A stretch of DNA of 64,000 nucleotides from a virus, in IMG/VR virus record IMGVR_UViG_3300010354_014876, positions 1 through 64,000 of that record, one strand, 5' to 3'. The translations under genes and the position numbers were made by a program. The notes beneath the pieces were generated by a model. The model had not been told where the DNA came from. It did not search any database and worked only from the letters and a program-made list of their open reading frames with translations. Below are positions 40,002-58,376 of this stretch, piece after piece (the first letter of the stretch is position 1; the number at the start of each line of letters is the position of its first letter).

Positions 40002-42215
40002 TTGGCTGCAGTTAATAAGAATTTTGTAATTAAGCATGGTGTTGAGGTAGGTGATAATTTAATTTTTGGTAATAAAGATCAACTCAAAGTTGGTATTGGC
40101 ACTACAAATCCAGCATTTACTCTTGATGTTCGTGGTGGTATTGGTGCAACTTCTGTTTCTGTAGGACAGACAATTACAGCAAACAGTGGAGTAGTAACTA
40201 ATTTTACAGCAAAGAATCTTACAATAAATGGTGGAACTCTTACTGCTGGTGGATCTGCTGGAACAAGTGGACAATATTTAAAATCGACAGCAACTGGTGT
40301 TGAGTGGGCAACATTTCCAGCTGCTAGAGCATCAACTTTTCACACAGCAACTGTATCTCAAACTACATTTACTTCAACCTATTACGTTGGTTTACTTGAT
40401 GTTTATGTAAATGGTGTTAAGTTAGCAAATACTGAATTTACAGCAACTGATGGGACAAATGTAATATTATCTAATTCGTGTTTTGGTGGAGAAATTGTAG
40501 AAATAGTTGCATATGGAATAGTTGCTACTGGTGTCGGTGGCACTGGAATTCAAGGTTTGACAGTTAAAAATGGAGGCACAATTGTAGGCAACACTGCTGG
40601 TGTAACTTCAATTGACTTTGTTGGTGCCGCATTCTCTGTTTTTGGTCCTGGTGCTGGTCTAACAATTACTCTTAACCAAGAGGCAAATTGGACAACAACT
40701 TTTAATGGACTTTATAATGTTGGAAATGTTGGTGTCGGAACAACTTCAACAGAATATCCATTAACAGTAGGAACACCTGGAGTTGGTGGAACATCACTAT
40801 TTGTAAATGGTGATGCAAGAATTACTGGAATTTTAACAATTGGAACTGCTTCGGTCACAATTGATGGTTCATCCAATACGATTACTGTTGGATCTGGAGT
40901 AACTATCAATGGATCTACTGGAGAGATTGTTGCTTCCAGTCTCACTCTACCCACAGGTGCTCTTGGAGATTATGCAAATGTTGCTGGAATTTCAACAACT
41001 GCTCAAGGACTCACTGGAACTCCAAACATTACTGTTGGAGTTGTAACGGCTTCATCAGTAACTGTTGGTTCTGCAGTTACAATTAATTCTTCTGGAATTA
41101 ATGTCTCAGGTACAACAACTGCAACTTCATTTGTAAAAAGAGGTGGAACTTCTTCACAATTCTTAAAAGCTGATGGATCTGTAGATTCAAGCACTTATCT
41201 AACTTCATATACAGAAACAGACACTATAGACTCTGTTCTTGGTAGAGGAAGTTCTACAACTAAAGGAATGAGTGTTGGAGTTCTGACTGCTACTTCTTTA
41301 AGTTTTAGTGGTACTCTAAATTCTTCCGGTGCTAATATTTCTGGAATCACAACTCTTTCTAGATTAAATGTTGGAACTGGTGGAACAATTGTTACAACAA
41401 CTTCTGATGGTCTGATCGGAATTGGAACAACAAATCCATCAGCAACTTTAATGATTGTTGGTAGTACCGGTGCAACTAAAGATGCAAGAATTGTTTTAAG
41501 AGATACATCTTCGGATGCACCAGAAGGTACAGTAACTTCTGTAGACTTCCAAGATAGCACTGGAACTCTTAAAGGTTATGTTGGTGATAGATACTCTGCT
41601 AAAGATACGATTCAATTAAGTTCTGCAGGTAATTTGTCATTAGAATCCAACAATTTAGAAAGAGTTACAATTCTAACCACTGGTGAGGTTGGAATTGGTA
41701 CAACAATTCCAAAATCGGGATCAAGTTTGCAAGTTGGAACTGGTGTGACAATTTATGGAAACTTGGGTATCGTAAGTGCTACTGCATATTATGGTGATGG
41801 GAGTAATCTTTCGGGAGTTAGTGGACTCTCTGGAAGAACTACAGCAACTGTAACAACTGCATCTATTGGTGCTGGAGCAACTGCTGATGTTACAATCACT
41901 GGATATAAAACATATTCACTCTTAAAAATTGGTGTTACACATGCTGCTTGGGTTGTTCTTTATACTGATACTGATAGTAGAGTGAGTGATGCTGCAGGTG
42001 CTTCTGGTGGTAGAGATCAATACACTGATCCAGTACCAGGATCTGGAGTTATTGCAGAAGTGATTACTGGTGCAGGCGGAACAGTTCTTATGACACCAGC
42101 AGTTATCGGTTGGAATAATGATGGAACTACAAACGTTTATGGTAGAGTAGTAAATCTAACAGGATCTTCGGTTGCAATCGGAGTTACTCTCACCATGGTT
42201 AAGATGGAAAGTTAA
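40002..42215 (+). CDS. Tail fibre protein (long), TTG start
   Basis: 737 aa beginning (TTG) MAAVNKNFVIKHGVEVGDNL. No upstream in-frame ATG is available; a strong GGGGAG ribosome site lies 8 nt before TTG. The protein is made of Gly/Thr/Ser/Ile beta modules: VGIGTTNPAFTLDVRGGIGATS, LDVYVNGVKLANTEFTAT, several VTATSV/ATSF units, VSATAYYGDGSNLSGVSG near residue 600. It ends in a beta-rich domain (TYSLLKIGVTHAAWVVLYTD...GSSVAIGVTLTMVKMES). Typical of trimeric fibres that recognise the host. It is followed by protease 2 with one base between. Confidence 0.75.
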   Translation: MAAVNKNFVIKHGVEVGDNLIFGNKDQLKVGIGTTNPAFTLDVRGGIGATSVSVGQTITANSGVVTNFTAKNLTINGGTLTAGGSAGTSGQYLKSTATGVEWATFPAARASTFHTATVSQTTFTSTYYVGLLDVYVNGVKLANTEFTATDGTNVILSNSCFGGEIVEIVAYGIVATGVGGTGIQGLTVKNGGTIVGNTAGVTSIDFVGAAFSVFGPGAGLTITLNQEANWTTTFNGLYNVGNVGVGTTSTEYPLTVGTPGVGGTSLFVNGDARITGILTIGTASVTIDGSSNTITVGSGVTINGSTGEIVASSLTLPTGALGDYANVAGISTTAQGLTGTPNITVGVVTASSVTVGSAVTINSSGINVSGTTTATSFVKRGGTSSQFLKADGSVDSSTYLTSYTETDTIDSVLGRGSSTTKGMSVGVLTATSLSFSGTLNSSGANISGITTLSRLNVGTGGTIVTTTSDGLIGIGTTNPSATLMIVGSTGATKDARIVLRDTSSDAPEGTVTSVDFQDSTGTLKGYVGDRYSAKDTIQLSSAGNLSLESNNLERVTILTTGEVGIGTTIPKSGSSLQVGTGVTIYGNLGIVSATAYYGDGSNLSGVSGLSGRTTATVTTASIGAGATADVTITGYKTYSLLKIGVTHAAWVVLYTDTDSRVSDAAGASGGRDQYTDPVPGSGVIAEVITGAGGTVLMTPAVIGWNNDGTTNVYGRVVNLTGSSVAIGVTLTMVKMES

Positions 42216-42216
42216 G

Positions 42217-43959
42217 ATGAGAAACTACGTAGTTACTCTCAAAAATAAAGAAGATCTTGATGGTTTCTATAAAGACATGGAAACCATCAATAGAAAAGGT
42301 CCTGATAAAGTAATTCCAGGAAGAAAAATTGAATGTGCAGTAAGAAGACCGATCAGTAGAAATACTGTTTATCTTTTAACAGATGAAGAAGCAGAAGAAA
42401 TTAGAAAGGACCAAAGAGTTTTAGCAGTAGAACTTACATTTAAAGAGCAGGGGATTAAAATAATTCCTCACTGGCAACAAACTGCAGATTTTGATAAGGA
42501 TCCAACTGGACCTAATGATAAGAACTGGGCACTTTTAAGATGTTGGAATGGTGGACCTATTTCTGGTTGGGGACTAGGTGGATCTTTTCTTGATTATAAT
42601 ACAACAATTGACACTACAAGCAGTGGGAAAAATGTTGATGTTGTAATTACTGATGTTCACATTCAATTTGATCACCCAGAATTTGCACTAAATCCAGACG
42701 GAACTGGTGGAAGTAGAGCAGTTCAGTTAGATTGGCTTCAGTACAGTACAGAAGCTGGATATGTTAGTAATGGTTCTTATGATTATGGAAGTTTTGAAGC
42801 AAATCATGGAACTCATGTTGCGGGAAGTGTAGCTGGAAATACTCAAGGATGGGCAAGATCAGCAAATATCTATAGTATGCATTATGCATATCCAAATACA
42901 ATTCCTTCTGGATCTCCTGCTCCTGGTGAGGTTGTAGTTGGTGCTTTGGGTTGGACTGAAGTTCTATTTGATTATATTATTGCGTGGCACAATAACAAGG
43001 AAATAAATCCAAATACTGGAAGAAGAAATCCTACAATTGTAAATGCAAGTTGGGGAGCAGCTGAAGTTGATTCTGATGGAGGACTGATTGCTACATCACA
43101 ATTAACACAATGGGTTTACAGGGGAACAACTACGAATGTTTCTAATCCATCATCATCCTCAGTTAATGCAGTAGGATTAATTACTGTTGATATAAATGAA
43201 AATGCAGATCCTAATGGAACATACTTACCTTACCTTCCAATTCGTTCTGCTGCTCTTGATGCTGATGTTCAAGATGCAATTGATGCTGGAATTGTGATCG
43301 TAAGTGCTGCTGGAAATACTTATTGGTATCATGATGTTCCAACAGGAAATAACTACAATAACACATTTACTTATACCAGAGCTAATGGATCCTCAAGAAC
43401 GGTTTACTATCATAGAGGTGCTTCTCCAGCAGCAGCAACTGGAGTAATTAGTGTTGGTGCTGTAGACATATATGTAGATGAACGAAAAGTAGACTTTAGT
43501 GATTTTGGACCAAGAATAGATGTTTTTGCACCTGGTAGATATATTATGTCTTCTGTTTGGGCAGCTGAATCTGGATATACTTTAATCAATGATCCTCGTG
43601 ATAGTAATTATAAACTTGCGAGATCATCTGGAACAAGTTTTGCTTCACCTCAAGTTGCAGGAGTTCTTGCTTGCCTAGCAGAACAGGAACCAAGAATGAA
43701 TCAACAAGATGCTAGAGATTACATAAATTATGTCGCAACCCAAGATCAAATAGGAAATACTGGAGATGGAAACCCTCCAGCAGTAAATTTTGATTGGACC
43801 GATCATTTGGATCTATTAGATTCTCCAAACTTATATCTTTATTATAATTATGAAAGGCCTATTGGTGGAATGGCATCACCAAAAATGAATTATAAGAGAA
43901 GACCATCAAGTGGTGCTGTTTATCCTCGTTACAACCGAACTAAAACTTATCTCAACTAA
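42217..43959 (+). CDS. Subtilisin-like serine protease, second copy
   Basis: 580 aa. The N-terminus (MRNYVVTLKNKEDLDGFYKDM...VYLLTDEEAEEIRKDQRVLAVEL) is an I9-like propeptide. The S8 triad is complete: Asp146 in VVITDVHI, His197 in NHGTHVAG, Ser474 in SGTSFASPQVAG; VSAAGNTY gives the oxyanion Asn. It is closer to standard subtilases than the larger protease at 36925. The start is the ATG at 42217, one base after the fibre stop; the frame is open a little further upstream. A fibre-processing or host-surface role is inferred. Confidence 0.85.
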   Translation: MRNYVVTLKNKEDLDGFYKDMETINRKGPDKVIPGRKIECAVRRPISRNTVYLLTDEEAEEIRKDQRVLAVELTFKEQGIKIIPHWQQTADFDKDPTGPNDKNWALLRCWNGGPISGWGLGGSFLDYNTTIDTTSSGKNVDVVITDVHIQFDHPEFALNPDGTGGSRAVQLDWLQYSTEAGYVSNGSYDYGSFEANHGTHVAGSVAGNTQGWARSANIYSMHYAYPNTIPSGSPAPGEVVVGALGWTEVLFDYIIAWHNNKEINPNTGRRNPTIVNASWGAAEVDSDGGLIATSQLTQWVYRGTTTNVSNPSSSSVNAVGLITVDINENADPNGTYLPYLPIRSAALDADVQDAIDAGIVIVSAAGNTYWYHDVPTGNNYNNTFTYTRANGSSRTVYYHRGASPAAATGVISVGAVDIYVDERKVDFSDFGPRIDVFAPGRYIMSSVWAAESGYTLINDPRDSNYKLARSSGTSFASPQVAGVLACLAEQEPRMNQQDARDYINYVATQDQIGNTGDGNPPAVNFDWTDHLDLLDSPNLYLYYNYERPIGGMASPKMNYKRRPSSGAVYPRYNRTKTYLN

Positions 43960-43986: not shown

Positions 43987-45354
43987 ATGGCAATTAACAG
44001 AGAGTTATCACAATTTGCGAGTTTTGTAGAAGTTGATAATACTTCTAAGAACATTGGAATTGCAGTCACAGCAACTCCTTATGTTGGTATTGGAACAACT
44101 AATCCAATTGCAAAGCTTGATGTAGTTGGGAAAGTAGAACTTGATGATGTTAATATCTCTGGAGTTACCACAGCAGCAAGAATTGGAGTAACTGGACTTA
44201 CTACTTCTTTAAATCTAAGTATTTCTGGTATTGCATCAGTTGGAACTGCCATTACAATGTATGGTGCTACTGGTATAATCAGTGCCTATAAGTTTTATGG
44301 TGATGGTTCTGGACTCACTGGAACTATTAGTGGAATTGGTATTCGCAGTGAAGGTGCTGATATTGGTTATGGCGCTACAATTATTGATTTTAAAGGTCCC
44401 GGTGTTTCTACAATTACCAATATCTCTGCTGGTATTGTAACGGTATTCTTTGAAGGTGGTGGTGGTGGATCAACGATTGATAAAGAGACCTTCAATGTTG
44501 GTGTTGGTGGAACTAGTTTAGTTACTTTAACAAGTCCTTATACTGCAGGTAATATTGATGTTTTCCTGAATGGTCTTAAATTAGTACCCACTACAGATTA
44601 TACGGAAACAAGTGCTAATGTAATTACATTAACAATTCCAGCAGTTAATGGTGATGTAATTGAGACAGTCTCTTTTGCAACAGTTGGTGCATTAAATGAT
44701 ATTGGTCTTGCAGTTCAACAAGATAATGTTGCAATAGCATCCAGTATTTCCACATTTAATTTTGTTGGTGGTGCAAATACTTATTATAACCGTGGAAATA
44801 ATATTCTTGACATTTATCCAAAAGTAACGCAAATCTATAAACAATCATTTACTGTTGGTGTTGCAGGAACTAATTTACTCACACTTACGGTTCCATATAC
44901 TGCTGGTAATATTGATGTTTACCGAAATGGTATTAGATTAGCATCTGGTGATTTCACTGAGTTATCATCAACTACTGTTGGATTAGCAACAACAGCAGTT
45001 TCTGGAGATATTGTTGAAATTCAATCATATGAAACACTGGTAAATTCATCATTAGGAGTTGGAATTCAATCTTCTTCACTATCAATAGGATCATCAATAA
45101 CAACTCTAAACTTCATTGGTGCTGGAAATACATTTTTAAATAGAGGAAATGGAGTTGTTGATATTAGTATTCAAGGTGGTGGAGGTGGAATATCTACAAC
45201 TGGAATTGCAACAGCTGCAATATTCTCAAACTTCCAATTCATATATGAAAATCAAGACTTAACCGCACCAAATCATAATTATGGTGTATTTGGACCAATT
45301 GGTATAGTGTCAACAATAACGGTTGGTGTTGGCAATACCTTCGTTGTTGTATAG
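43987..45354 (+). CDS. Tail fibre protein (455 aa)
   Basis: Begins MAINRELSQFASFVEVDNTS. It has the fibre module ISAYKFYGDGSGLTG near residue 105, then two tandem copies of a beta domain: TFNVGVGGTSLVTLTSPYTAGNIDVFLNGLKL and SFTVGVAGTNLLTLTVPYTAGNIDVYRNGIRL. The C-terminus (ATAAIFSNFQFIYENQDL...YGVFGPIGIVSTITVGVGNTFVVV) resembles that of the 117-aa protein at 48305. It opens the first copy of the duplicated block. Confidence 0.72.
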   Translation: MAINRELSQFASFVEVDNTSKNIGIAVTATPYVGIGTTNPIAKLDVVGKVELDDVNISGVTTAARIGVTGLTTSLNLSISGIASVGTAITMYGATGIISAYKFYGDGSGLTGTISGIGIRSEGADIGYGATIIDFKGPGVSTITNISAGIVTVFFEGGGGGSTIDKETFNVGVGGTSLVTLTSPYTAGNIDVFLNGLKLVPTTDYTETSANVITLTIPAVNGDVIETVSFATVGALNDIGLAVQQDNVAIASSISTFNFVGGANTYYNRGNNILDIYPKVTQIYKQSFTVGVAGTNLLTLTVPYTAGNIDVYRNGIRLASGDFTELSSTTVGLATTAVSGDIVEIQSYETLVNSSLGVGIQSSSLSIGSSITTLNFIGAGNTFLNRGNGVVDISIQGGGGGISTTGIATAAIFSNFQFIYENQDLTAPNHNYGVFGPIGIVSTITVGVGNTFVVV

Positions 45355-45365
45355 GGAGGTAAATT

Positions 45366-45590
45366 ATGTCTAACTTAAGAGTCAACACAATCACAAATCT
45401 TAATGATAATGGTCCCGTAGAATTTTCAAAAGGTGTTGTAATTGGTAGTGGTAAAACTATAAATGGAAGTGTTAATGTAACAGGTGTTGTAACTGCCACT
45501 TCTTTTGTTGGAAATGCTGCTGGAATTACTTCATTTATTCCAAATGAAGTAACTAAGTCAAGATCTATTGCTTACACTTTCATAACATAA
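45366..45590 (+). CDS. Mini-fibre module protein 1
   Basis: 74 aa: MSNLRVNTITNLNDNGPVEFSKGV, a short beta stretch, then VTGVVTATSFVGNAAGITSF and the end TKSRSIAYTFIT. It is one of seven short ORFs with the same head (LRVNTI..NDNG), centre (TATSFVG) and tail (SIAY..I). They look like single-unit trimeric fibre tips or adaptors. Ribosome site GGGAGG lies 4-9 nt upstream. Confidence 0.6.
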   Translation: MSNLRVNTITNLNDNGPVEFSKGVVIGSGKTINGSVNVTGVVTATSFVGNAAGITSFIPNEVTKSRSIAYTFIT

Positions 45591-45594
45591 AATC

Positions 45595-45816
45595 ATGCCA
45601 GACTCAAAAGTTAAAGTAAATTCAATAGAGGGTTATGATCCTGTAGGACCTGTTGTTCTTGGTTATGGAGCTTCAGTTCCTATTATTACTGGTAGTGGTG
45701 GTATCAATGTTACAGGTATCATAACAGCAACATCTTTTGTTGGTTCTGGAGCAAATTTAACTGGTTTGTCCATTGCAACTAAATCAAGATCAATTGCTTA
45801 TAATTTTATAACTTAA
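45595..45816 (+). CDS. Mini-fibre module protein 2
   Basis: 73 aa: MPDSKVKVNSIEGYDPVGPVVLGYGAS, then VTGIITATSFVGSGANLTGL and the end TKSRSIAYNFIT, nearly identical to the end of module 1. It begins 4 nt after module 1. Interpretation as for the series at 45366. Confidence 0.6.
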   Translation: MPDSKVKVNSIEGYDPVGPVVLGYGASVPIITGSGGINVTGIITATSFVGSGANLTGLSIATKSRSIAYNFIT

Positions 45817-45820
45817 ACTC

Positions 45821-46066
45821 ATGTCAAAAATTAAAGTCAACACCATTGTAAATAAAAACGATAATGGTGCTCCAGAATTATCAAAAGGCGCAACAATTCC
45901 AAGTGGACAAGTTTTATCTTCTTCCTCAGGAATGAACGTTACTGGAATTGTAACTGCTTCAAGTTTTGTTGGTAATGGCAGCAATTTAACTGGACTATCA
46001 ATTTCAACAAAAGGTCAAGCAATTGCATATAAGTTGATATTGAAATTTGACGAATTTGCTTCTTGA
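45821..46066 (+). CDS. Mini-fibre module protein 3
   Basis: 81 aa: MSKIKVNTIVNKNDNGAPELSKGAT, then VTGIVTASSFVGNGSNLTGL and a longer end KGQAIAYKLILKFDEFAS. The extended tail breaks the short-tail pattern of modules 1 and 2. Starts 4 nt after module 2. Confidence 0.58.
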   Translation: MSKIKVNTIVNKNDNGAPELSKGATIPSGQVLSSSSGMNVTGIVTASSFVGNGSNLTGLSISTKGQAIAYKLILKFDEFAS

Positions 46067-46080
46067 TACAATCAACAGAT

Positions 46081-46088
46081 CATAAATA
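46081..46088 (+). promoter_or_regulatory. Late promoter motif, copy A of a duplicated leader
   Basis: CATAAATA, 20 nt before the ATG at 46108. The run ATAAATAACTAAAAAG is also found before 48305, marking duplicated leaders. Confidence 0.55.
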
Positions 46089-46107
46089 ACTAAAAAGTAG
46101 TAATAAA

Positions 46108-46464
46108 ATGACAAGAGCTTCAGATGTTGCTAGTTTCTTATCTGGTGTAGGTCCTTCAGGTCAACCGACTACTCTTGGTGTAGGATTTACTGTAACAAAT
46201 AGTGGTGATGTTAAAGTTGGTGGGGCATTAACTGTCAGTGGCATAGTTACTGCTGCGTCTTATTATGGTGATGGTAGTAACCTTAGAGGTATTGTTTCTG
46301 GTGTAGGGATTTCAACACTTGGTGGAGTAGTTGGAACTGCAATTACTTCATTGGTGTTCAGAGGGTCTGGTATTTCTACTGTAAGAGCATCAGCAGGTAT
46401 TGCAACCATCAATGTTGAAGGTGGTGCGGTTGGATTTAATAAAATCAATTATATTTTCAATTAA
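46108..46464 (+). CDS. Fibre module protein (118 aa)
   Basis: Begins MTRASDVASFLSGVGPSG, with a VSGIVTAASYYGDGSNLRGI fibre module and a beta C-terminus (VGTAITSLVFRGSGISTVRASAGIATINVEGG). The first residues and the promoter leader match those of the protein at 48305 (MTKARDIS), so this is the matching member in the first duplicated block. Fibre role inferred. Confidence 0.58.
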   Translation: MTRASDVASFLSGVGPSGQPTTLGVGFTVTNSGDVKVGGALTVSGIVTAASYYGDGSNLRGIVSGVGISTLGGVVGTAITSLVFRGSGISTVRASAGIATINVEGGAVGFNKINYIFN

Positions 46465-46491
46465 TTCTAAATACTATTAAAAAGAAAAACT

Positions 46492-46865
46492 ATGGCTGCT
46501 CCTAATATTGCAAATTTAACCACTATTCTTGGGTTACGACTTCTATAACTCTTACTACTTCTTCACAAACTGTAGTAAATAATCCCAGTTCAAGTAATAA
46601 GGTTTTAAAAATTAACACTATTTCGGCATCAAACGTTAGTGCTTCGACTGCAAAAGTAACTATTCGTTATGCTCAAGGAGCTGCTGGTGCAGGAACAACT
46701 GTTTCACTTGCAAATGGAATTGATGTTACTGCAGGTTCAACTTTAATCGTTCTTGACAAATCATCCACAATTTATCTTGAAGAAAATCGTTCTATTACTG
46801 CTTTAGCTAGTGCGAATACAGCAATAGATTTGGTAATATCTTATGAAGATATCACCAATGTTTGA
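46492..46865 (+). pseudogene. Frameshifted copy of the 124-aa protein at 49883
   Basis: Starting at ATG 46492 the frame reads MAAPNIANLTTILG, then hits a stop after TTCTA at 46552. Restoring one missing base near 46531-46535 (GGG to GGGG) lets the rest read through VTTSITLTTSSQTVVNN... LDKSSTIYLEENRSITALAS... to DLVISYEDITNV and TGA at 46865, parallel to the intact paralogue. A single-base loss in a G run (natural or sequencing error) is the simplest explanation. Confidence 0.75.
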
Positions 46866-46887
46866 TATTAACTGAGGAAAACGTAAA

Positions 46888-47463
46888 ATGGCAGATCCAA
46901 ACGCACTGTATTCTTATAAAGGATCAGAACCTCAACCACTTCCTCATGAAATTTTTTGGAAGGAAGATTGGGGACAAATTACATATAGAACTGATGCAAA
47001 CACTTTTACCGAAGAAGAACTTGTAAAAGCAGGTTATACAGGTCCTTATGAAGTTCCTAGCATTGATATTGAATTGCAAACAAGAAGATGGGATTCTGAA
47101 AATTTAACTTATGTTGTTGAAGACATTTCAGAAGAAATTCTTTGGGATAAAGTTCGTCAACAGAGAAATAATCTTCTATTAGCATCTGATTGGACAATGG
47201 CAGCAGATGCTCCAGAGAGATTAAATTTTCGTGAATGGGAAATGTATCGTCAAAGACTAAGAGATATTACAGAAAATTTTGAATCACCAAAAGATGTAAT
47301 TTGGCCAGAAAGTCCAGAAGGTCGTCCGGATGAAGATTTTGATCAACCAAGAGTTTATGAAGATCGTATCCTTTGGAGAATTCGTGATTTGGAAGCAGTT
47401 GTCAAAAGACTTACTACAGAGGTATTTTCACAATCCGTAGGTATTTCATCAACAGGGGTGTAA
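46888..47463 (+). CDS. Tail-fibre assembly chaperone-like protein (copy A)
   Basis: 191 aa. It starts MADPNALYSYKGSEPQPLP and contains LWDKVRQQRNNLLLASDWTMAADAPERL...WEMYRQRLRDIT...VIWPESP, the pattern of the phage tail assembly chaperone family (RxxRNxLL..SDWT...YRQ.LRDI...WP). The C-terminal 40 residues add a coiled segment (RILWRIRDLEAVVKRL) absent from copy B at 50281. It probably helps fold or attach the neighbouring fibre/adhesin. Confidence 0.72.
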   Translation: MADPNALYSYKGSEPQPLPHEIFWKEDWGQITYRTDANTFTEEELVKAGYTGPYEVPSIDIELQTRRWDSENLTYVVEDISEEILWDKVRQQRNNLLLASDWTMAADAPERLNFREWEMYRQRLRDITENFESPKDVIWPESPEGRPDEDFDQPRVYEDRILWRIRDLEAVVKRLTTEVFSQSVGISSTGV

Positions 47464-47466
47464 TTC

Positions 47467-48171
47467 ATGGCACCATATCGTCCTACACATATTAATAAAA
47501 GAGCATATCCAGGAAATGCGAATGTTGTTGGTCCAACAACAAGAGCAACAGTAGGAGTTACAACAACTCAATGTTGTGTATGTAATTGCACTCTTTGCGG
47601 AGCAGCTCAATTAACTTATACCCTTGGTTGTAGGTTTTTGCCAACAGCATATCCTTGCTGCCACTGTTGCTGTTGTTGTTCATGTACGATATATGATCGT
47701 ACAGTTCCAGGTGGAATGTGGAAATCGAGTGAGCAGTGGGAAGCAAAATCAGTAAGAGATGCTTGGGGAGATGATAATTGCGTAACTGGACCTCAAATAG
47801 GATTTTGTGCTAATTCCGGTACAATAACTGGTTGTACAACTGATTGTAAAGGATTTCTTATTAGTGGTACCAACTGGTTTGTTGCTCCTTCCTGTACACA
47901 AGTGGCTACAAATTGGTATTCTCGTAATGATGCAGTAACTGTAGCAAACTCTCTTATGGGTAGTTTGGGATGGTTTGTACCATCCATGGGCCCACTACAA
48001 AATCCAGGATATACTTGTAGAATTTATTGGGATTCGTACTCCGCCACTAGCTACTGGAGTAGTGAAGAGTTCGATGCTAGTAACGGTTGCTTCGTGCGCT
48101 TTACTAATGGTGTTGCGGACCGCTTCAGTAAGTCGAACACGATCTATGTTCGTGCCTTCAGAAATGGGTGA
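47467..48171 (+). CDS. Cys-rich C-type-lectin-like adhesin 1
   Basis: 234 aa. It starts MAPYRPTHINKR, the shared head of three paralogues. Residues 64-73 are an extreme cysteine cluster (PCCHCCCCCSC nearby). The C-terminal half holds CKGFLISGTNWFVAPS, DAVTVANSLMGSLGWFVP, LQNPGYTC and then YWSSEEF...VRFTNGVADRF...VRAFR, a DUF1566/C-type-lectin ending like that of diversity-generating retroelement targets. It likely forms the receptor-binding tip served by the upstream chaperone-like protein. Confidence 0.65.
   Translation: MAPYRPTHINKRAYPGNANVVGPTTRATVGVTTTQCCVCNCTLCGAAQLTYTLGCRFLPTAYPCCHCCCCCSCTIYDRTVPGGMWKSSEQWEAKSVRDAWGDDNCVTGPQIGFCANSGTITGCTTDCKGFLISGTNWFVAPSCTQVATNWYSRNDAVTVANSLMGSLGWFVPSMGPLQNPGYTCRIYWDSYSATSYWSSEEFDASNGCFVRFTNGVADRFSKSNTIYVRAFRNG
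48027..48165 (+). other. Candidate variable region of adhesin 1
   Basis: From the end of the conserved NPGYTC segment to the gene end. Of 44 codons (48031-48162) only 2 end in A, compared with 16 of the 50 codons just upstream (47881-48030); many end in C. This contrasts with the AT-rich style of the gene and resembles NNC/NNT-type diversified codons. No template repeat or reverse transcriptase is in the window. Confidence 0.35.
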
Positions 48172-48279
48172 TTTATTGAATTTTGTAATTTTACAGTAGT
48201 GCAATAAAAAATTCTAGGTAAATTTTGTCCTCATTTTTAGGAACGTAGTTTAGAGGAATAAACTAATAACTCTTTTTGT

Positions 48280-48287
48280 TATAAATA
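48280..48287 (+). promoter_or_regulatory. Late promoter motif, copy B of a duplicated leader
   Basis: TATAAATA, the exact T4 late consensus, 17 nt before the ATG at 48305. The 16-nt run ATAAATAACTAAAAAG is shared with 46082-46097. The 133-nt gap since adhesin 1 holds nothing else clear. Confidence 0.7.
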
Positions 48288-48304
48288 ACTAAAAAGACTA
48301 TAAG

Positions 48305-48658
48305 ATGACAAAGGCACGGGACATATCTCGTTATGGTTTAGGTGTTGGTATTCAATCTGGTAGCAATACGATTAGTGGAGTTGGAATCACTCAACTTAAC
48401 TTTATCGGTGCTGGTAATACCTTTAGGGTTGCTGGTGGAACTGTTGATATTAGTATTCAAGGTGGTGGTGGAGGAGTTTCTACCACTGGAATTCTGTCTT
48501 GTAGAGCTGTTGCAAACTCTTCACTGATTTTTGAAAGTCTTGATCTTGGTGACAGTTTTAATCAAGGCACAAATTATGCAATGATTGGACCAATTACAGT
48601 AATTGGTTCTGGCACCACCGTAACTGTAGGTGCTGGTGTATCCTACGTCATCATCTAA
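48305..48658 (+). CDS. Short fibre protein, opens duplicated block B
   Basis: 117 aa. It starts MTKARDISRYGLGVGIQSGSN and has TQLNFIGAGNTFRVAGGTVDISIQGGGGGVSTTG. This parallels TTLNFIGAGNTFLNRGNGVVDISIQGGGGGISTTG of the long fibre at 43987, and the C-termini also match (SYAMIGPITVIG...TVTVGAGVSYVII type). It is a shortened relative of that fibre. Promoter directly upstream. Confidence 0.65.
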   Translation: MTKARDISRYGLGVGIQSGSNTISGVGITQLNFIGAGNTFRVAGGTVDISIQGGGGGVSTTGILSCRAVANSSLIFESLDLGDSFNQGTNYAMIGPITVIGSGTTVTVGAGVSYVII

Positions 48659-48669
48659 GGAGAGGAATT

Positions 48670-48948
48670 ATGTCAGTACTTAGAGTTCAAAAAATAACAA
48701 ATGAAGCAGGAACAGGACCTGTAGAATTTACTAAAGGTGTTAATTTTCCAGCATCTCAGAATTTCACTGAGAGTGACATGGTGATTAATGCTCCAACTGG
48801 AATTGCCACAGTGACTTTTTTAAGAGCATCCAATGTAAATGTTTCTGGAGTTTTAACAGCAACTTCATTTGTTGGTAATGGTTCAAGACTAACAAATACT
48901 CCAGGAACTCGTTCTGGAAAAGTTATTGCTCTCCACTTAATTAGTTGA
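48670..48948 (+). CDS. Mini-fibre module protein 4
   Basis: 92 aa: MSVLRVQKITNEAGTGPVEFTKGV, then VSGVLTATSFVGNGSRLTNT and the end RSGKVIALHLIS. Longer middle than modules 1-3. Ribosome site GGAGAGG upstream. One of the series described at 45366. Confidence 0.6.
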   Translation: MSVLRVQKITNEAGTGPVEFTKGVNFPASQNFTESDMVINAPTGIATVTFLRASNVNVSGVLTATSFVGNGSRLTNTPGTRSGKVIALHLIS

Positions 48949-48957
48949 GGAATAAAA

Positions 48958-49236
48958 ATGCCATCACAAATTAGAGTAGATAGTATTTCAAATTTAAATG
49001 GATCTGGAGCAGTAGAACTAACTTATGGTGCAAGTATTCCTTCTACTGGGAAAGTAAAAGTTGAAGGGAACATTAATATTGCAGGAGTTTCAACCGTTGG
49101 ATTTTTAACAGTTACAAATGCAAATATTTCTGGAGTTATCACTGCAACATCTTTTGTTGGTGATGGAAGTGGATTAACTGGAATCCCTGTGGCAACTGAA
49201 GCAAAAACAATAGCCTTTGCAATTATAGGTTCTTAA
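48958..49236 (+). CDS. Mini-fibre module protein 5
   Basis: 92 aa: MPSQIRVDSISNLNGSGAVELTYGAS, then ISGVITATSFVGDGSGLTGI and the end ATEAKTIAFAIIGS. Strong DNA-level similarity to the next ORF around the GGAGTTATCACTGCAACATC run, pointing to recent duplication. Confidence 0.6.
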   Translation: MPSQIRVDSISNLNGSGAVELTYGASIPSTGKVKVEGNINIAGVSTVGFLTVTNANISGVITATSFVGDGSGLTGIPVATEAKTIAFAIIGS

Positions 49237-49238
49237 AA

Positions 49239-49535
49239 ATGGCAAGACTTAGAGTTAACACTATTGTAGATAGAAATGATAGTGGTCAACCATCATTACC
49301 TTATGGTGCAACTATTCCATCTGGACAACGTATAAATGTCAATGGAAATATAAATTTAACCGGAATTTCTACAGTAGGATTTGTAACTGCTTCTTTCGGT
49401 TCAAATATTTCTGGAGTTATCACTGCAACATCTTTTATTGGTGATGGAAGTGCTCTTACCGCAATCCCAACTACGACGATATCAAAAGCAATAGCTTTAA
49501 AACTTTTAATGGATCCTCTGCCATTTAGATCATGA
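49239..49535 (+). CDS. Mini-fibre module protein 6
   Basis: 98 aa: MARLRVNTIVDRNDSGQPSLPYGATI, then ISGVITATSFIGDGSALTAI and the end SKAIALKLLMDPLPFRS. The tail is longer than in modules 1-5 and resembles that of the next protein. It begins 2 nt after module 5 and overlaps module 7 by 4 nt. Confidence 0.6.
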   Translation: MARLRVNTIVDRNDSGQPSLPYGATIPSGQRINVNGNINLTGISTVGFVTASFGSNISGVITATSFIGDGSALTAIPTTTISKAIALKLLMDPLPFRS

Positions 49536-49837
49536 AAGTTCAAACCGATGAAATTATAAGTAGAACGGGTCAAGATGCAGTATCATTTCTTGATGGTGCG
49601 ACTGGAGGAACTGCGGGAGGAAATGGTAGGTTTATCGTAACTTGCACATCAACATCTTTTATTGGAATATCTACTTTTGGAACTTTAAATACTGTTAATG
49701 ATGTCCATACCTCTGGAATTGTGACAGCATTATTTTTTCAAGGTGGTGGGCAGGAACTGACAAATATTACTAGCATTTCAATTGCAAAAAGTTATGCATT
49801 AAAACTCATTATTTCAGATCCACCTTTAAGATCATAA
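49532..49837 (+). CDS. Mini-fibre module protein 7 (divergent)
   Basis: 101 aa: MKVQTDEIISRTGQDAVSFLDGAT, then a diverged core (TSGIVTALFFQGGGQELTNI) and the end AKSYALKLIISDPPLRS. It overlaps module 6 (ATGA). The most diverged member of the series. Confidence 0.58.
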   Translation: MKVQTDEIISRTGQDAVSFLDGATGGTAGGNGRFIVTCTSTSFIGISTFGTLNTVNDVHTSGIVTALFFQGGGQELTNITSISIAKSYALKLIISDPPLRS

Positions 49838-49842
49838 ACTGT

Positions 49843-49850
49843 TATAAATA
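49843..49850 (+). promoter_or_regulatory. Late promoter motif before the 124-aa protein
   Basis: TATAAATA, exact T4 late consensus, 32 nt before the ATG at 49883. Confidence 0.65.
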
Positions 49851-49882
49851 ATCAAAGTAAATTAAACAATTTATAAAAAAAC

Positions 49883-50257
49883 ATGGCTGCTCCAAATATT
49901 GTAGGTGTAACAACTATTCTTGGTGTAACAACCAGTGCTCAATTGTCAACATCTCCTGTCACTATTGTCAGCAACCCAGCAAATAGTGGCAAAGTTTATA
50001 AGATTAATACTATTATTGCTGCAAACGAAACTGCTGCTACAGCAACAGTAACAGTTCGTTATAATGATAATGCTGCAGGTGCTGGAACTACAGTTACACT
50101 TGCAAATGGAATTGATATCGCAACAAAATCAACTCTCGTTGTTCTTGACAAGGCATCTTCAATTTATCTAGAAGAGAATAGATCAATCACTGCTTTAAGT
50201 GGAACCGCAAGTGCAATTGATCTTGTCGTATCTTATGAAGATATCACCAATCTTTGA
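49883..50257 (+). CDS. Conserved beta-rich virion-associated protein (intact copy B)
   Basis: 124 aa: MAAPNIVGVTTILGVTTSAQLSTS, a beta core (VYKINTIIAANETAATATVTVRYNDNAAGAGTTVTLANG) and LVVLDKASSIYLEENRSITALSG to DLVVSYEDITNL. It is the intact paralogue of the frameshifted copy at 46492. A small virion or fibre-attachment protein is likely; no named family recognised. Confidence 0.65.
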   Translation: MAAPNIVGVTTILGVTTSAQLSTSPVTIVSNPANSGKVYKINTIIAANETAATATVTVRYNDNAAGAGTTVTLANGIDIATKSTLVVLDKASSIYLEENRSITALSGTASAIDLVVSYEDITNL

Positions 50258-50280
50258 TATTTAAATAAAGGAGAATCACA

Positions 50281-50718
50281 ATGGCAGATCCAAACGCACT
50301 TTATTCCTATCAAGGAGGAGAGCCACAACCTCTTCCTAACGAAATTCACTATGTTGAAGATTGGGGTGGAACCAACTTTAGACAAGGTGTAGAAACTTTT
50401 ACTGATGAAGAACTTACAAGAGCAGGTTATACTGGACCTTTTACAAGACCAGAGTTTGACCAAGAACTAGAAACTCAAGCATGGGATTCTGATCTTCAAG
50501 AATGGGTTACTACACCAATTCCTGATGAATTTTTCTGGGAAAGATTGAGAGCAGAAAGAGACTATAAACTTGCAATTTCTGATAGAACTCAACTTGCAGA
50601 CGCACCTTTAACAAGTGCTAAAAAAACTGCATGGGCTACTTATCGTCAGGAATTAAGAGATCTTCCTGCAAATACCGAAAATCCAAGAGAAGTTACTTGG
50701 CCAGTTCAACCGGAGTAA
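50281..50718 (+). CDS. Tail-fibre assembly chaperone-like protein (copy B)
   Basis: 145 aa. It starts MADPNALYSYQGGEPQPLP and carries WERLRAERDYKLAISDRTQLADAPL...WATYRQELRDLP...VTWPVQPE, the same chaperone family pattern as copy A at 46888 but without the C-terminal coiled extension. An AAGGAGAA ribosome site is close. It precedes adhesin 2 by 3 nt, as copy A precedes adhesin 1. Confidence 0.74.
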   Translation: MADPNALYSYQGGEPQPLPNEIHYVEDWGGTNFRQGVETFTDEELTRAGYTGPFTRPEFDQELETQAWDSDLQEWVTTPIPDEFFWERLRAERDYKLAISDRTQLADAPLTSAKKTAWATYRQELRDLPANTENPREVTWPVQPE

Positions 50719-50721
50719 AGT

Positions 50722-51270
50722 ATGGCTCCTTTTAGACCACAAAACTTAAATAAAAGACTTGTAAGTGAAACTGGTGGAAATGGTGGAGTTATTGGACCCA
50801 CAGTTGTTCCATATTTGTGTGGAGCTCTTTCTCTAGGATCTAGATGTTCTGGTGGGTGTTGTACCGGAAGATTTACTTTAAGTGAATCTTATTGTGGAGT
50901 AAAGTGTTTATGCAATAATGCACTGGTAGATTGTAAAGGTTTCTTTATTTGTTGTGGCCCTTCAACTACTAAATGGTTTGCAGCACCCTCTTCTACTGAA
51001 GTGTCTAGAAATTGGTTTAATAGAGGAGATGCAGTAACTGTAGCAAACTCATGTATGGGATCCTGTGGATGGTTTGTTCCTGAATGTAACCAACTCCAGA
51101 ATCCAGGATATACTTGCTCCGTTCACTGGGACGATACTGGAGGCTGGTATTGGTCCAATAGCGAAGGAGGTGGACTTGGTATTATGGTACTCCTGTCTAA
51201 TGGGTTCACTTTAGCCAACGGTAAAAATCACACAAATTCTGTTCGTGCCTTTAGATGCACATCAACTTGA
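50722..51270 (+). CDS. Cys-rich C-type-lectin-like adhesin 2
   Basis: 182 aa: head MAPFRPQNLNKR, a Cys-rich middle (CSGGCCTGRFTLSESYCGVKCLC), CKGFFICCGPSTTKWFAAPS, DAVTVANSCMGSCGWFVPECNQLQNPGYTC, then a divergent end (DDTGGWYWSNSEGGG...VLLSNGFTL...SVRAFRC). It lacks the N-terminal poly-Cys cluster of adhesin 1. Paralogue of 47467 and 52414; the last 45 residues are the least conserved part. Confidence 0.65.
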   Translation: MAPFRPQNLNKRLVSETGGNGGVIGPTVVPYLCGALSLGSRCSGGCCTGRFTLSESYCGVKCLCNNALVDCKGFFICCGPSTTKWFAAPSSTEVSRNWFNRGDAVTVANSCMGSCGWFVPECNQLQNPGYTCSVHWDDTGGWYWSNSEGGGLGIMVLLSNGFTLANGKNHTNSVRAFRCTST

Positions 51271-51306
51271 ATTAATATAAACTTTATTATTTTTTAATTA
51301 TATAAA

Positions 51307-51657
51307 ATGAGTATAATAATTGGACTGTATGGATCATTTGAATGGGAAGCAAATCAAATTTTTGATAAAGAAAGTTCTCATAGATCAATGATTCATGATA
51401 GTGGGGTTACTTTATTTAAGAATGGAAATCATGTATGCAGCATTTCTGAGGAAAGATTAAGTAAAATAAAAAATGATGGGAATTTTCCTATCAATTCTAT
51501 AAATTATTGTTTAAATTATGCAAATATTTTATGTGAAGAGGTGGATTACGTATATATTCCATCAATGTGCGTGGATATTTTTTATAAGAAGTGGTATGAT
51601 AATGTTATTCATGAAAAAATAAAAAATATTTTTCCAAATTCTGAAATAAAAAATTGA
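51307..51657 (+). pseudogene. Truncated carbamoyltransferase (N-terminal remnant)
   Basis: 116 aa. The stretch MIHDSGVTLFKNGNHVCSISEERLSKIKNDGNFPINSINYCL is the start of a NodU/CmcH-type carbamoyltransferase (HD-S..., a short strand, EER-S-KH-like). The family normally has about 500-600 residues, and the C-terminal half is absent. A complete family member lies at 56196. Probably a relic, though a short functional protein cannot be excluded. A roughly 108-nt AT-rich gap follows with no recognised feature. Confidence 0.6.
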
Positions 51658-51764
51658 TTGATTATGTTTGATAGTAAAATTATATGCTTCTAAAAATTTT
51701 ACTATTACTTGATTTTTAATTTCATATAAATTATAATAACATATAAATTTACCTGAAACAAAAC

Positions 51765-52385
51765 ATGAACTTAATACCAATTTATTCTGTCCCTCTGTGG
51801 CAATCAGAATACCCCGAGTTTGAAAAGGAAAAACAAATTATTTTAGATGCTTGTAAAAGATATAGACAAGAAAATCCGTCTTCAGAGACAAAATCAAATG
51901 TTGGTGGATATCAATCACCTAATTTTCTTCATGCAAAAGAAGAATTAGCACCTCTTTTTGAATATATTTGTCAGATGGCATTTAAAGCATGTGCAGACCT
52001 TGATTTTATTGATTGCGACGTTGCTCTCACTGAATCTTGGGTGAACATCAATGATAGTCGTCAATGTATGAATGGAGAGCATGTACACGGAGAAGTTTTC
52101 TCTGGGGTATTTTATCTTCAAGCACCGGAAGAAAGTGGAAAACTTAATATTATCAATCCAGCAATCAATCGTATGTGGAAAGGTTGCTCACTAACTTCAC
52201 AGAAAAATCAGTTTACTGCAGAAAGTATAAAAATTGAACCAGTTGAGGGTGATATCATCTTATTTCCCTCATATCTTCCACACTCAGTAGAAACCAATAA
52301 TCATGATGGGGAGAGAATTTCAATTTCCTTTAATGTCATTGCTCTTCCAAAAGGTTCTATAAATCAGCAAGTTTCTAACGAATAA
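51765..52385 (+). CDS. 2OG-Fe(II) oxygenase (TIGR02466-like)
   Basis: 206 aa. It starts NLIPIYSVPLWQSEYP, with GGYQSPNFL. The iron-site motif is GEHVHGEVFSGVFYL with two His, and the distal half is ILFPSYLPHSVETNN...RISISFNVIA with His and Arg. This is the layout of the putative 2-oxoglutarate/iron oxygenases common in marine phages. Substrate unknown; it sits between two adhesin genes, so modification of a fibre protein is an open possibility. Confidence 0.8.
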   Translation: MNLIPIYSVPLWQSEYPEFEKEKQIILDACKRYRQENPSSETKSNVGGYQSPNFLHAKEELAPLFEYICQMAFKACADLDFIDCDVALTESWVNINDSRQCMNGEHVHGEVFSGVFYLQAPEESGKLNIINPAINRMWKGCSLTSQKNQFTAESIKIEPVEGDIILFPSYLPHSVETNNHDGERISISFNVIALPKGSINQQVSNE

Positions 52386-52413: not shown

Positions 52414-52959
52414 ATGGCTCCTTTGAGACCTGCAAATTTAAATAAAAGAAGAATAAGTGCAACTGGCGGAAATGGTGGAGTTATTGGACCCACTAAGACT
52501 CCATACGTATCCCTTGAGTTAGGATGTCGTTGTTGTGGAGGACTTAGTTCCGGAAGATTCACTTTAAGTGAATCTTATTGTGGAGCAAAATTTGCAGAGA
52601 TTGTAGATTTTAAGGGTTTCTTTATTTGTTGTGGTCCTTCAACCACTAAATGGTTTGTAGCACCTTCTTGCACTGAAGTATCAAGAAACTGGTATACTAG
52701 AGGAGATGCAGTAACTGTAGCAAATTCATGCATGGGATCTTGTGGATGGTTTGTTCCTGAATGTGGTCAACTCCAGAATCCCGGATACTCTTGCAGAAAT
52801 TTTTGGGACTCATATGTATCTGCTTCATACTGGAGCAATACAGATTTTAATGGTATTACACGATCATGGTCTGTAAGTTTAGTTGATGGCACGGCATCCA
52901 ACTATAGTCTTCAAAACAGTGTATGCTGCATTCGTGCTTTCAGATGCACCACTACTTGA
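52414..52959 (+). CDS. Cys-rich C-type-lectin-like adhesin 3
   Basis: 181 aa: head MAPLRPANLNKRR, middle CRCCGGLSSGRFTLSESYCGAKF, FKGFFICCGPSTTKWFVAPSC, DAVTVANSCMGSCGWFVPECGQLQNPGYSC, then a divergent end (SASYWSNTDFNG...WSVSLVDGTASNYS...IRAFRC). Closest to adhesin 2 in its first 120 residues. Unlike adhesins 1 and 2 it has no chaperone-like partner directly upstream. Confidence 0.65.
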   Translation: MAPLRPANLNKRRISATGGNGGVIGPTKTPYVSLELGCRCCGGLSSGRFTLSESYCGAKFAEIVDFKGFFICCGPSTTKWFVAPSCTEVSRNWYTRGDAVTVANSCMGSCGWFVPECGQLQNPGYSCRNFWDSYVSASYWSNTDFNGITRSWSVSLVDGTASNYSLQNSVCCIRAFRCTTT

Positions 52960-52989: not shown

Positions 52990-53511
52990 ATGAATGAAAG
53001 TATAATATCAAAAAAAGAATTAAATTATATTCTTGAGTTTGTTAATGTAAATGAAGATTTATTTGTAAAAAATACAATTTCTTCTAATAGAAAATATTTA
53101 ACTTTATATAGAAACTTAAATCCTCCCAGTTTATTTTTTGAGATTAAAAAAAGAATTTTAGATAGAGAAAAAATTATAGACAATTACATTGATGATGTAT
53201 TTTCCTATGGTGATTTGTATGGAGATTATATAGGGTTCATTTCTGATGGTGGAAAAATACATTACCACAAAGATCAAACATTACAAAAATATAAACTTAT
53301 CAGATTTAATTTATTCTTATCTGTTCCAGAAAAAGGAGGACTTCCAATATATAATGGAGTAACTATACCAGTAAATGTTGGAGATTATATCAGATGCAAT
53401 TCAAGTGAAGAACATCATGAGTGTGAAATGGTTGAAGGTGATATTCCAAGAATCATAATATCATATGGAATTTATTTGAAACAAAAAAATAAACTTATCA
53501 ATTACTCATGA
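52990..53511 (+). CDS. Putative 2OG-Fe(II) oxygenase
   Basis: 173 aa. GGKIHYHKDQT supplies an H-x-D pair, LIRFNLFLSVPEKGGLPIYNG the following strand, and the distal part IRCNSSEEHHECEMVEGDIPRIIISYGI supplies His and Arg, together the jelly-roll dioxygenase pattern. AT-rich. It overlaps the sulfotransferase gene by 4 nt (ATGA), tying it to the downstream cluster. Substrate unknown. Confidence 0.68.
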   Translation: MNESIISKKELNYILEFVNVNEDLFVKNTISSNRKYLTLYRNLNPPSLFFEIKKRILDREKIIDNYIDDVFSYGDLYGDYIGFISDGGKIHYHKDQTLQKYKLIRFNLFLSVPEKGGLPIYNGVTIPVNVGDYIRCNSSEEHHECEMVEGDIPRIIISYGIYLKQKNKLINYS

Positions 53512-54341
53512 AAAAATATTATTTTATCTCCGGACTTCCAAGGTCTGGTTCCACATTACTTTCTTCTATTCTTAAACAAAATCCTGATTTTTATGCTGAT
53601 ATTGCATCACCTGTAGAATCTCTCACAAGAACTGCAGTTGATGTAATTACAAGTTCTGAGAATAATTTTACAATGACAGAAGACCAAAGAAAGAACTTAA
53701 TGTATGGAATTTTTGATGGTTACTATAAACACATAGATAAACCAGTCATCTTTGATAGTTCAAGGGCTTGGACAAAGAAAACAAACTTTCTAAAGGCACT
53801 CTTTCCTTACACTAAAATGTTATGTCCAGTCAGAAATATTGTTTCTATTTTGAACTCTTTTGAAGTTATTTCCTCTAAAAATCCATTTCACACTAAGACA
53901 CTCACAGAACATAGGGACAATGTGTTTGTAAGATGTGATGAAATGATGGATAAGAATGTTGGAATTGTTGCTGGGCCGTGGATTTTACTTCAAGAAGGTT
54001 ATGCTCTCAACCCAGAAATGATACACTTTATTGAATATGAGAACCTATGTAAGGAACCAGAAAAAACAATGAGAAAAGTATATGAGTTTCTTGAGAGACC
54101 TTATTATGCCCACGATTTTGAAAATGTAGAATACTCAAATGAAAACTTTGATAAGTCGTGTAATCTCAAAGACCTACATACAGTCAAAAGAAAAGTGGAA
54201 TATAACCCACCAAGATGTGTGCTTCCTCCAGAAATTGTGAAAAAATATCAAGAAATGAATATGGAGTTTTGGAGAGCAGGACATAAAACTGACCCAGATA
54301 TTATTGGAAAATTAGATAAAAAATTTATTGAGTATAAATGA
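53508..54341 (+). CDS. Sulfotransferase
   Basis: 277 aa. The N-terminal PAPS 5'-phosphosulfate loop is FISGLPRSGSTLLSSIL, near perfect. The 3'-phosphate site likely lies in CPVRNIVSIL. The C-terminal part has MIHFIEYENLCKEPEKTMRKVYEFL, typical of the sulfotransferase fold. It moves sulfate from PAPS to a hydroxyl or amine of a glycan or other acceptor; acceptor unknown. Part of the glycan cluster. The stop is one base before the next ATG. Confidence 0.88.
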   Translation: MKKYYFISGLPRSGSTLLSSILKQNPDFYADIASPVESLTRTAVDVITSSENNFTMTEDQRKNLMYGIFDGYYKHIDKPVIFDSSRAWTKKTNFLKALFPYTKMLCPVRNIVSILNSFEVISSKNPFHTKTLTEHRDNVFVRCDEMMDKNVGIVAGPWILLQEGYALNPEMIHFIEYENLCKEPEKTMRKVYEFLERPYYAHDFENVEYSNENFDKSCNLKDLHTVKRKVEYNPPRCVLPPEIVKKYQEMNMEFWRAGHKTDPDIIGKLDKKFIEYK

Positions 54342-54342
54342 T

Positions 54343-55278
54343 ATGAAAATTATTAACATTGACGGTGGAATTGGAAGAATAATTGCATCCCTTCCATCAC
54401 TTCTGAAATATCATCAAAATCACCCAGATGAAGAGTGGTATGTTTCTATTCCTGGATGGGATTATGTTCCTCTTGGTATTCCAGAACTTCAAGAAAGAAC
54501 TATAAATCCAGATACTAAAGGTGTCTGGGAAAATTATTTTATGAAGGCGGATGAAGTAGTTTCTCCAGAACCTTATCGTCTTCCTAATTTTTATAAAGGA
54601 AAAATATCACTTGCAGAAGCATTTGACGAAATTATTAATGAAACAGAAGATCATAGTGATTTAAATTATGAAACATTAAATCTTTCTCATGCAGAAATTC
54701 GTAGAGGACAAGAAATTATTTACGAAGCTTATGAAAAACAAGGAAAAGATCAGACTATAGTTTTTAATCCTTATGGTTCTTCCGCAATGGTAACTCCATT
54801 AAATGGGGTGTGTGATGATAGTTTGAGATCCATTCCAGAAGATATGTTCAATGAACTTTATAAGTTACTGGCAAAGGATTATAACGTTATCTACATGGGA
54901 TACAGACACCTTCTCAATCCCGATGATCAATTTGTATATACACCTCAACAAGATCTTCATATTCGTGAGTGGATGGGAGTAATCTCTCAAATTGATTATT
55001 TGATTGGTTGTGACAGTGTTGGGCAACATATTGCAAGGGCAACAGGAACTCAAGGATGCGTAATTATGGGTGGAACTGATGCAGTCAATATGTCATATCC
55101 TGATCATTTTAGAATTATTCAAAGAAAAAAACCAGTTTATTCACCAATGAGAATTTCTGGACTCCAATCAAATCTTGCAGAGAGACTAAACAAAGAATGT
55201 ATTGAATATACTGATGATGAAATTCTAGATACATATGAAAAAATAAAGAATGATTTAAAAAATATAATCAATGATTAA
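54343..55278 (+). CDS. Glycosyltransferase family 9-like protein
   Basis: 311 aa. It starts MKIINIDGGIGRIIASLPSLLKY, as in the ADP-heptose:LPS heptosyltransferase family. The late segment ISQIDYLIGCDSVGQHIARATG (D-S-x-x-x-H) and QGCVIMGGTDAVNM match the donor site. A TTG at 54328 in frame overlaps the sulfotransferase and is less likely. It could add a sugar to a surface glycan; donor and acceptor unknown. It overlaps the radical-SAM gene by 8 nt. Confidence 0.72.
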   Translation: MKIINIDGGIGRIIASLPSLLKYHQNHPDEEWYVSIPGWDYVPLGIPELQERTINPDTKGVWENYFMKADEVVSPEPYRLPNFYKGKISLAEAFDEIINETEDHSDLNYETLNLSHAEIRRGQEIIYEAYEKQGKDQTIVFNPYGSSAMVTPLNGVCDDSLRSIPEDMFNELYKLLAKDYNVIYMGYRHLLNPDDQFVYTPQQDLHIREWMGVISQIDYLIGCDSVGQHIARATGTQGCVIMGGTDAVNMSYPDHFRIIQRKKPVYSPMRISGLQSNLAERLNKECIEYTDDEILDTYEKIKNDLKNIIND

Positions 55279-56185: not shown

Positions 56186-56195
56186 TAATTGCTAT

Positions 56196-58375: not shown

Positions 58376-58376
58376 T

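Follow-up and report, generated by a model that had tools for sequence, protein, structure and literature searches.

The window analysed here comprises positions 1-64,000 of the IMG/VR virus record IMGVR_UViG_3300010354_014876, a linear fragment of 64,543 bases in all. It carries two adjacent blocks of tail genes, A and B, each with a fibre gene, mini-fibre genes, a gene for a 124-residue protein, a chaperone gene and a gene for a Cys-rich adhesin (Table 1). These open reading frames (ORFs) stand in the order reported in the first-pass annotation, which had described two adhesins; a third, C, absent from that account, lies beyond the oxygenase gene that follows block B and is 81% identical to adhesin B over about 396 nucleotides (nt). 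We consider it most likely, at a probability of roughly 0.6, that this multi-adhesin set descended from the target of a diversity-generating retroelement (DGR) and that the retroelement has been lost or is out of view.

The model of adhesin A shows a lectin-like fold over approximately residues 122-234, with low confidence in the N-terminal half. The best PDB match of its C-terminal half was the C-terminal domain of Legionella Lcl (8q4e; E 1.8e-6 by fold), C-type lectins coming next, and a profile match to the same domain was obtained at E 3e-9. Given the strength of the fold match, adhesin A may work like an Lcl_C domain rather than be filed as one. Lcl is a bacterial collagen-like adhesin, unlike the tail-associated phage lectins of the window, and we know of no retroelement that targets it. 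Adhesins B and C appear to have a hypervariable end as well, since the nucleotide identity between them is 0.89 before the variable region and 0.47 inside it, a sharp difference found in the end only. The three Cys-rich proteins would be receptor-binding lectins, probably borne by the fibre and mini-fibre apparatus with the help of the Phage_tail_APC chaperones, and they presumably bind host receptors. The presence of several such proteins in one virus, proposed in the first-pass annotation, is well supported by sequence and fold, but their number is three instead of two.

The relatives of these adhesins were sought in IMG/VR. Adhesin B gave five relatives; adhesin A alone gave none there, and neither A nor B found one among cultured phages. 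Of these records one, which holds L004 (contig L008), contains a reverse transcriptase (RT) gene recognised by RVT_1, and between its adhesin and RT genes lie an Avd-like gene (NCBIfam NF033474, E 4e-17, which is under the model's curated cut-off) and a second copy of the adhesin end. A search with this RT returned 46 loci, of which nine, on nine contigs, are close at 63-100% identity. L008-L014 and L016 share one arrangement: the adhesin gene comes first, then avd, template and RT, and after these the oxygenase gene that is also found in the window. The order of adhesin and oxygenase in the window is therefore that of the relatives' locus minus the DGR core, which counts for descent from a DGR target. 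Mismatches between template and variable region fell on template adenines in 26/26 cases (L012, L016), 28/29 (L013, L014), 22/24 (L009, L010) and 18/19 (L011), and a complete DGR, with RT, avd, template and an adenine-specific variable region, is present in L009-L014 and L016. All eight RTs of the relatives carry the IGNLTSQ and YxDD motifs, which we take to mark the RTs of DGRs. In these viruses the RT copies the template repeat with adenine errors into the last ~43 codons of the lectin gene, and the three adhesins of the window are members of this family of DGR variable proteins. Adhesin A is homologous to the proven targets and syntenic with them.

Two further elements were observed among the relatives. 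In L008 the template (9860-9992) has few adenines, and its mismatches with the variable region (9166-9298) fall on adenines in 9 of 21 cases; this DGR seems to be decaying at the template, beside an intact-looking RT. In L106 (contig 3300032294_003113) one DGR has three target lectins, at contig positions 29631-30116, 35960-36427 and 36526-36993, whose differences from the template all fall on adenines (18/18, 15/15 and 20/20), and one of the targets lies several kilobases (kb) beyond the RT.

The end of adhesin A itself bears the signature of a DGR. The GC content at third codon positions (GC3) reaches 0.575 in its last 40-45 codons, and the maximum elsewhere is 0.425 among 1892 stretches of 40 codons from 14 other genes of the window. 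Compared with the template of L011, which is a relative's template rather than its own and the best of seven tried, adhesin A has changes at 19 of 44 adenines and at 10 of 86 other bases (binomial p 4.9e-4). All changed adenines lie at first or second codon positions (9 and 10, respectively), and over 42 ungapped codons the third base is kept in all 18 codons at which the amino acid differs. Against the L009 template it is kept in 17 of 20. The corresponding values for the controls were 146/338 before the variable region, 11/32 for adhesin B and 12/31 for adhesin C. The adenine signature was not seen on adhesin C (17/45 adenines vs 31/84 other bases), and the alignment of adhesin B was too short for the adenine comparison. 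A core pattern of adhesin A matched nothing else in the window and three contigs in IMG/VR, which represent two viruses, both with an RT; as the pattern was drawn up with the templates of these viruses in view, the result indicates compatibility and should not be taken as independent evidence.

The end of adhesin A would have been written by a DGR either in its own lineage or in a donor, with recombination afterwards. An extreme form of the latter is that the end was acquired by ordinary recombination from a DGR-bearing virus and that the recipient perhaps never had a DGR of its own. The nucleotide identity of adhesin A to the lectins of L011 and L010 is 0.75 and 0.70 in the variable end vs 0.65 and 0.65 just before it, although the end is expected to diverge fastest, and the base composition jumps at the border of the variable region. 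However, rewriting from an L011-like template yields the same pattern, and the A-type relative L004 has a DGR at the same place. We regard such an acquisition as improbable.

No complete DGR was found in the record of the window, where RT, template and avd were all missing. RVT_1 had no match in the 64,543 bases; tblastn found neither avd nor RT in the window or in the last 644 bases of the record, and the relatives' RT gave no match at E < 0.9. Nothing stood out as a template repeat in an ungapped scan of both strands of the window, which was run without a DGR locus as positive control, a similar ungapped search having recovered the templates of L008-L016. The DGR core of avd, template and RT is now absent at this locus. 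Its loss is not proven because the record is a fragment, although we infer loss rather than a position out of view. At the site that the core occupies in the relatives there is a 116-residue ORF (51307-51657) with weak similarity to the N-terminus of a carbamoyltransferase-like protein encoded at 56196 (E 1.6e-4); it is perhaps a gene fragment.

The locus was followed through a census of 49 contigs, assembled by profile scans with the oxygenase and the adhesin plus the earlier loci; a scan with chaperone A returned two records, both already included. An RT was present in 10 of the 49, always at this locus, and in none of the 39 remaining records, each of which was searched whole. Several RT-less loci retain scars of a deletion. 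L088 has avd residues 1-97 followed by RT residues 326-346, L056 has avd residues 1-42 and the RT tail, and L086 has avd residues 1-17. When L012 was compared by blastn, the similarity on the right resumed at 10974 (L088), 10992 (L086) and 10982 (L082 and L083); each of these points falls inside the final 68 bases of the L012 RT gene (10001-11041). Since the RT tail overlaps the start of the oxygenase gene, keeping it may preserve the upstream signals of that gene. On the lectins of the RT-less L086 and L088 the adenine signature is still strong when they are compared with the template of a relative (32/47 adenines vs 3/80 other bases and 30/47 vs 3/76, respectively).

One pair from the census is nearly identical. 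Where the DGR-bearing L012 (3300021958) has one lectin and a DGR, the RT-less L083 (3300044512) has a tandem row of four lectins, yet the two are 99.67% identical over 1220 nt from the RT tail rightward. We tentatively propose, as a possibility that we would not favour over its negation, that viruses of the T4-like cyanophage group alternate between two ways of varying their receptor-binding lectin: either a single lectin is rewritten by a DGR, or two to four diverged lectins form a fixed array once a deletion between avd and the final RT codons has removed the DGR core and spared the oxygenase gene and its upstream signals. The pair would show such an exchange, and the window might then be a case whose most recently written variant can still be read. 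Tandem lectin arrays were also observed in two records without RT, L091 (38-3502; three lectins of ~370 residues) and L055 (5528-9949; two of ~730 residues).

The census also bears on the possibility that a live DGR in the unseen part of the genome writes adhesin A in trans, with B and C as older targets that are no longer rewritten. The record is a fragment, the L106 element shows that a target may lie at a distance from its RT, and the signature on adhesin A is fresh: it has six non-adenine mismatches against the L011 template, and five are found for the live L009 template. On the other hand, all 10 RTs among the 49 contigs sit at this locus, where the window has none, and relative to L010 the end of adhesin A has an apparent 2-nt change after CTTCAG, perhaps spoiling the site. 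We therefore consider rewriting in trans to be unlikely.

Several results weigh against descent from a DGR target with subsequent loss. Pfam Lcl_C (PF07603) scores below its gathering threshold for adhesin A (14.9 bits vs 34.9, E 0.033) and has no match for adhesins B and C. Neither in the stretch from A to B nor in that from B to the oxygenase gene was a remnant of avd or RT detected at E values up to 1, and an RT may possibly lie elsewhere in a genome of which the record is a fragment. In a longer MAFFT alignment the third base is not always kept (19/21 against L011; 18/22 against L010), and the flank after adhesin A is only weakly like the DGR flanks (p 0.006 to 0.86 with eight references), which is suggestive at most. 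Lectin copy number was not associated with the absence of RT (p 0.66, 34 clusters): two or more lectins occur in 15 of 28 RT-less clusters and in 2 of 6 RT-bearing ones. In this comparison one cluster that mixes RT-bearing and RT-less records was counted as RT-bearing, and 6 of 50 records (the 49 contigs and the window) without a scorable oxygenase, as well as lectin ORFs under 100 residues, were left out. The idea that lectin arrays are a general substitute for DGRs was rejected on this result.

The first-pass annotation had explained the two blocks by a tandem duplication of one whole cassette. We consider a recent duplication of this kind, followed by ordinary divergence, very improbable. 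The blocks share their gene order, adjacency, and homologous heads and leaders, and self-BLAST confirmed their homology, with 74% identity over 449 nt (the 124-residue gene and the start of the chaperone gene), 75% over 152 nt in the adhesin ends and shorter matches in the fibre and mini-fibre genes. However, the chaperones of A and B differ by a synonymous divergence (dS, NG86) of 0.94 and the adhesins by one of 1.5, and chaperone dS to orthologues is lower, at 0.61 (A vs L005), 0.64 (B vs L003) and 0.59 (B vs L006). The A/B split is therefore older than the split of those viruses; the synonymous dating that had been suggested as a check points to an old event, and the homology of the blocks is upheld. 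In a tree of adhesins without their variable ends (16 rows), A groups with L004, L005, 20190, 21092 and two records of 17967 (support 100/99), apart from a clade in which B and C join L002, L003 and others. The chaperone tree (18 rows) also parts A from B, though less firmly (88/96, a value that the tool does not star). Both types therefore have orthologues elsewhere, and they occur together in record 3300020190_000385, with about 14 kb between the two adhesins. The third bases retained in the end of adhesin A likewise speak against ordinary divergence: the adhesin ends have indeed diverged, but simple drift does not describe a DGR-type variable region of which that of A fits a retroelement template. 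Cassettes A and B are instead paralogues of old origin that either came to lie next to each other or stayed so, while B and C, with a dS of 0.47 ahead of the variable region, look like a younger duplicate pair.

The blocks are also less regular than two copies of one cassette. The leader ATAAATAACTAAAAAG, which we liken to the T4 late promoter TATAAATA, does occur twice, at 46082 and 48281, but in block A it precedes the 118-residue ORF at 46108 and not the 455-residue fibre gene, so that the blocks form a mosaic. The 117-residue fibre protein of block B matches the C-terminus of the 455-residue fibre (53% over residues 356-455), and its match to the 118-residue ORF consists of the head and a weak patch only. 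Two complete receptor-binding sets are doubtful, since block A has no intact 124-residue gene. Its reading frame breaks near 46530, as seen by three-frame translation and alignment with block B, through either a real mutation or a sequencing error. The block-B protein has weak fold similarity to Bacillus endospore appendage subunits and might, as a guess, be a structural or joining part. Both chaperones also match tail-fibre assembly PHROGs, and the C-terminal extension of chaperone A is common to L005 and L008. A scan for fibre genes gave mostly weak partial matches and was not used.

Table 1 Features of the adhesin locus in the window (aa, amino acids; AF2 pLDDT, AlphaFold2 predicted local distance difference test; 2OG, 2-oxoglutarate).
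Feature	Position	Strand	Evidence
455-aa fibre protein, block A	43987..45354	+	ORF; PHROG tail fibre phrog_18345 E 4.7e-11
Three mini-fibre proteins, block A	45366..46066	+	ORFs; homologous to one another and to the four of block B
Leader ATAAATAACTAAAAAG ahead of 118-aa ORF	46082..46097	+	
118-aa ORF, head resembling block-B fibre	46108..46464	+	ORF, comparison
Block-A copy of 124-aa MAAPNI gene, frameshifted near 46530	46492..46865	+	Translation, alignment
Tail-fibre assembly chaperone A, 191 aa	46888..47463	+	Phage_tail_APC E 2e-14
Adhesin A, 234 aa, 21 Cys, predicted lectin domain at residues 122-234	47467..48171	+	
Variable region of adhesin A, retroelement signature	48037..48162	+	
Block-B leader, inside TATAAATAACTAAAAAG	48281..48296	+	
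117-aa fibre protein, block B	48305..48658	+	ORF, comparison
Four mini-fibre proteins, block B	48670..49837	+	ORFs, comparison
124-aa MAAPNI protein, predicted beta-sandwich	49883..50257	+	AF2 pLDDT 88.8
Tail-fibre assembly chaperone B, 145 aa	50281..50718	+	Phage_tail_APC E 3.5e-21
Adhesin B, 182 aa; variable end ~51118-51267	50722..51270	+	Alignment with A and C
Site of avd, template and RT in relatives; here only the 116-aa ORF	51271..51764	+	Synteny
2OG-Fe(II) oxygenase, DGR neighbour in relatives	51765..52385	+	PF13759 E 8.6e-23, TIGR02466
Adhesin C, 181 aa, third copy, nearest to B	52414..52959	+	BLAST, tree

Other genes near the locus were named by eye. Two large subtilisin-like proteins (36925-39963 and 42172-43959), called from GTHVAG and GTSFASP-type motifs that we presume to be diagnostic, lie amid the tail and fibre genes, and sulfotransferase-, glycosyltransferase-, radical-SAM- and carbamoyltransferase-like genes (52990-59936), partly conserved in the relatives, lie beside the adhesins.

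The window comes from a virus with T4-like cyanophage genes. Its baseplate hub matches phrog_1922 (E 3.6e-108) and 440 phage records, 433 of which are Synechococcus, cyanophage or Prochlorococcus phages, with 28-32% identity among the matches listed (best 12 of 440). Of 14 records tested, eight contain phrog_1922, and five of these bear an RT (L012, L010, L106, L015 and L016). An integrase was found in none of the 14, and neither was a gp23-type capsid protein (PF07068), for which the control was silent too, the records being fragments. A short stretch of L012, ~1% of the query, is shared with 34 records of Synechococcus phages, at 80-85% identity among the matches listed.

The DGR of Bordetella phage BPP-1 (Mtd, avd, template repeat, brt) has the same target-avd-template-RT order as the relatives of the window and likewise alters the end of a host-binding lectin specifically at adenines, and its brt matches the RT of the L004 record at 31.5%. 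It differs in that the record of the window has targets but no avd, template or RT that we could find, and in that the virus group carries T4-like cyanophage genes. In the accessible text of PMC8144416, DGR targets in general are C-type lectins and phage tail proteins. Literature searches listed no title on a DGR in T4-like cyanophages, and the supplementary tables of PMC8144416 may include such contigs. In Treponema denticola, according to the accessible part of PMC4891356, remnants of DGR targets are kept in genomes without RT and template. They resemble the case described here in their adenine-type differences from the templates of relatives, but they are bacterial surface proteins instead of tail-associated phage lectins, and in the relatives of the window deletion junctions are visible. 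In the Hankyphage of Bacteroides a phage-encoded DGR likewise diversifies a C-type-lectin host-binding protein (PMC6199706). That phage is temperate, and the survey in the same paper, in its accessible part, reports DGRs from temperate phages alone. The DGR-bearing relatives described here, by contrast, have genes of T4-like cyanophages, and none of the 14 records tested yielded an integrase. Against the accessible parts of these papers, RT-less remnant targets are already known, and the setting and the deletion series are new.

We propose that three diverged lectins have been kept as a fixed set, with A as an old lineage and B and C as a younger pair, and that this set would widen or buffer the host range. 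The findings suggest that a phage can keep a fixed lectin set after its mutator has gone. What had been read as a duplicated adhesin would become a mark that targeted hypermutation has left in viruses carrying genes of T4-like cyanophages, which bears on the statement, in the accessible part of the survey, that confines phage DGRs to temperate phages (PMC6199706). The loci with the element intact, with the core deleted and scars left, and with all of it gone may form a natural series for asking when a mutator, and when a fixed repertoire, profits a phage.

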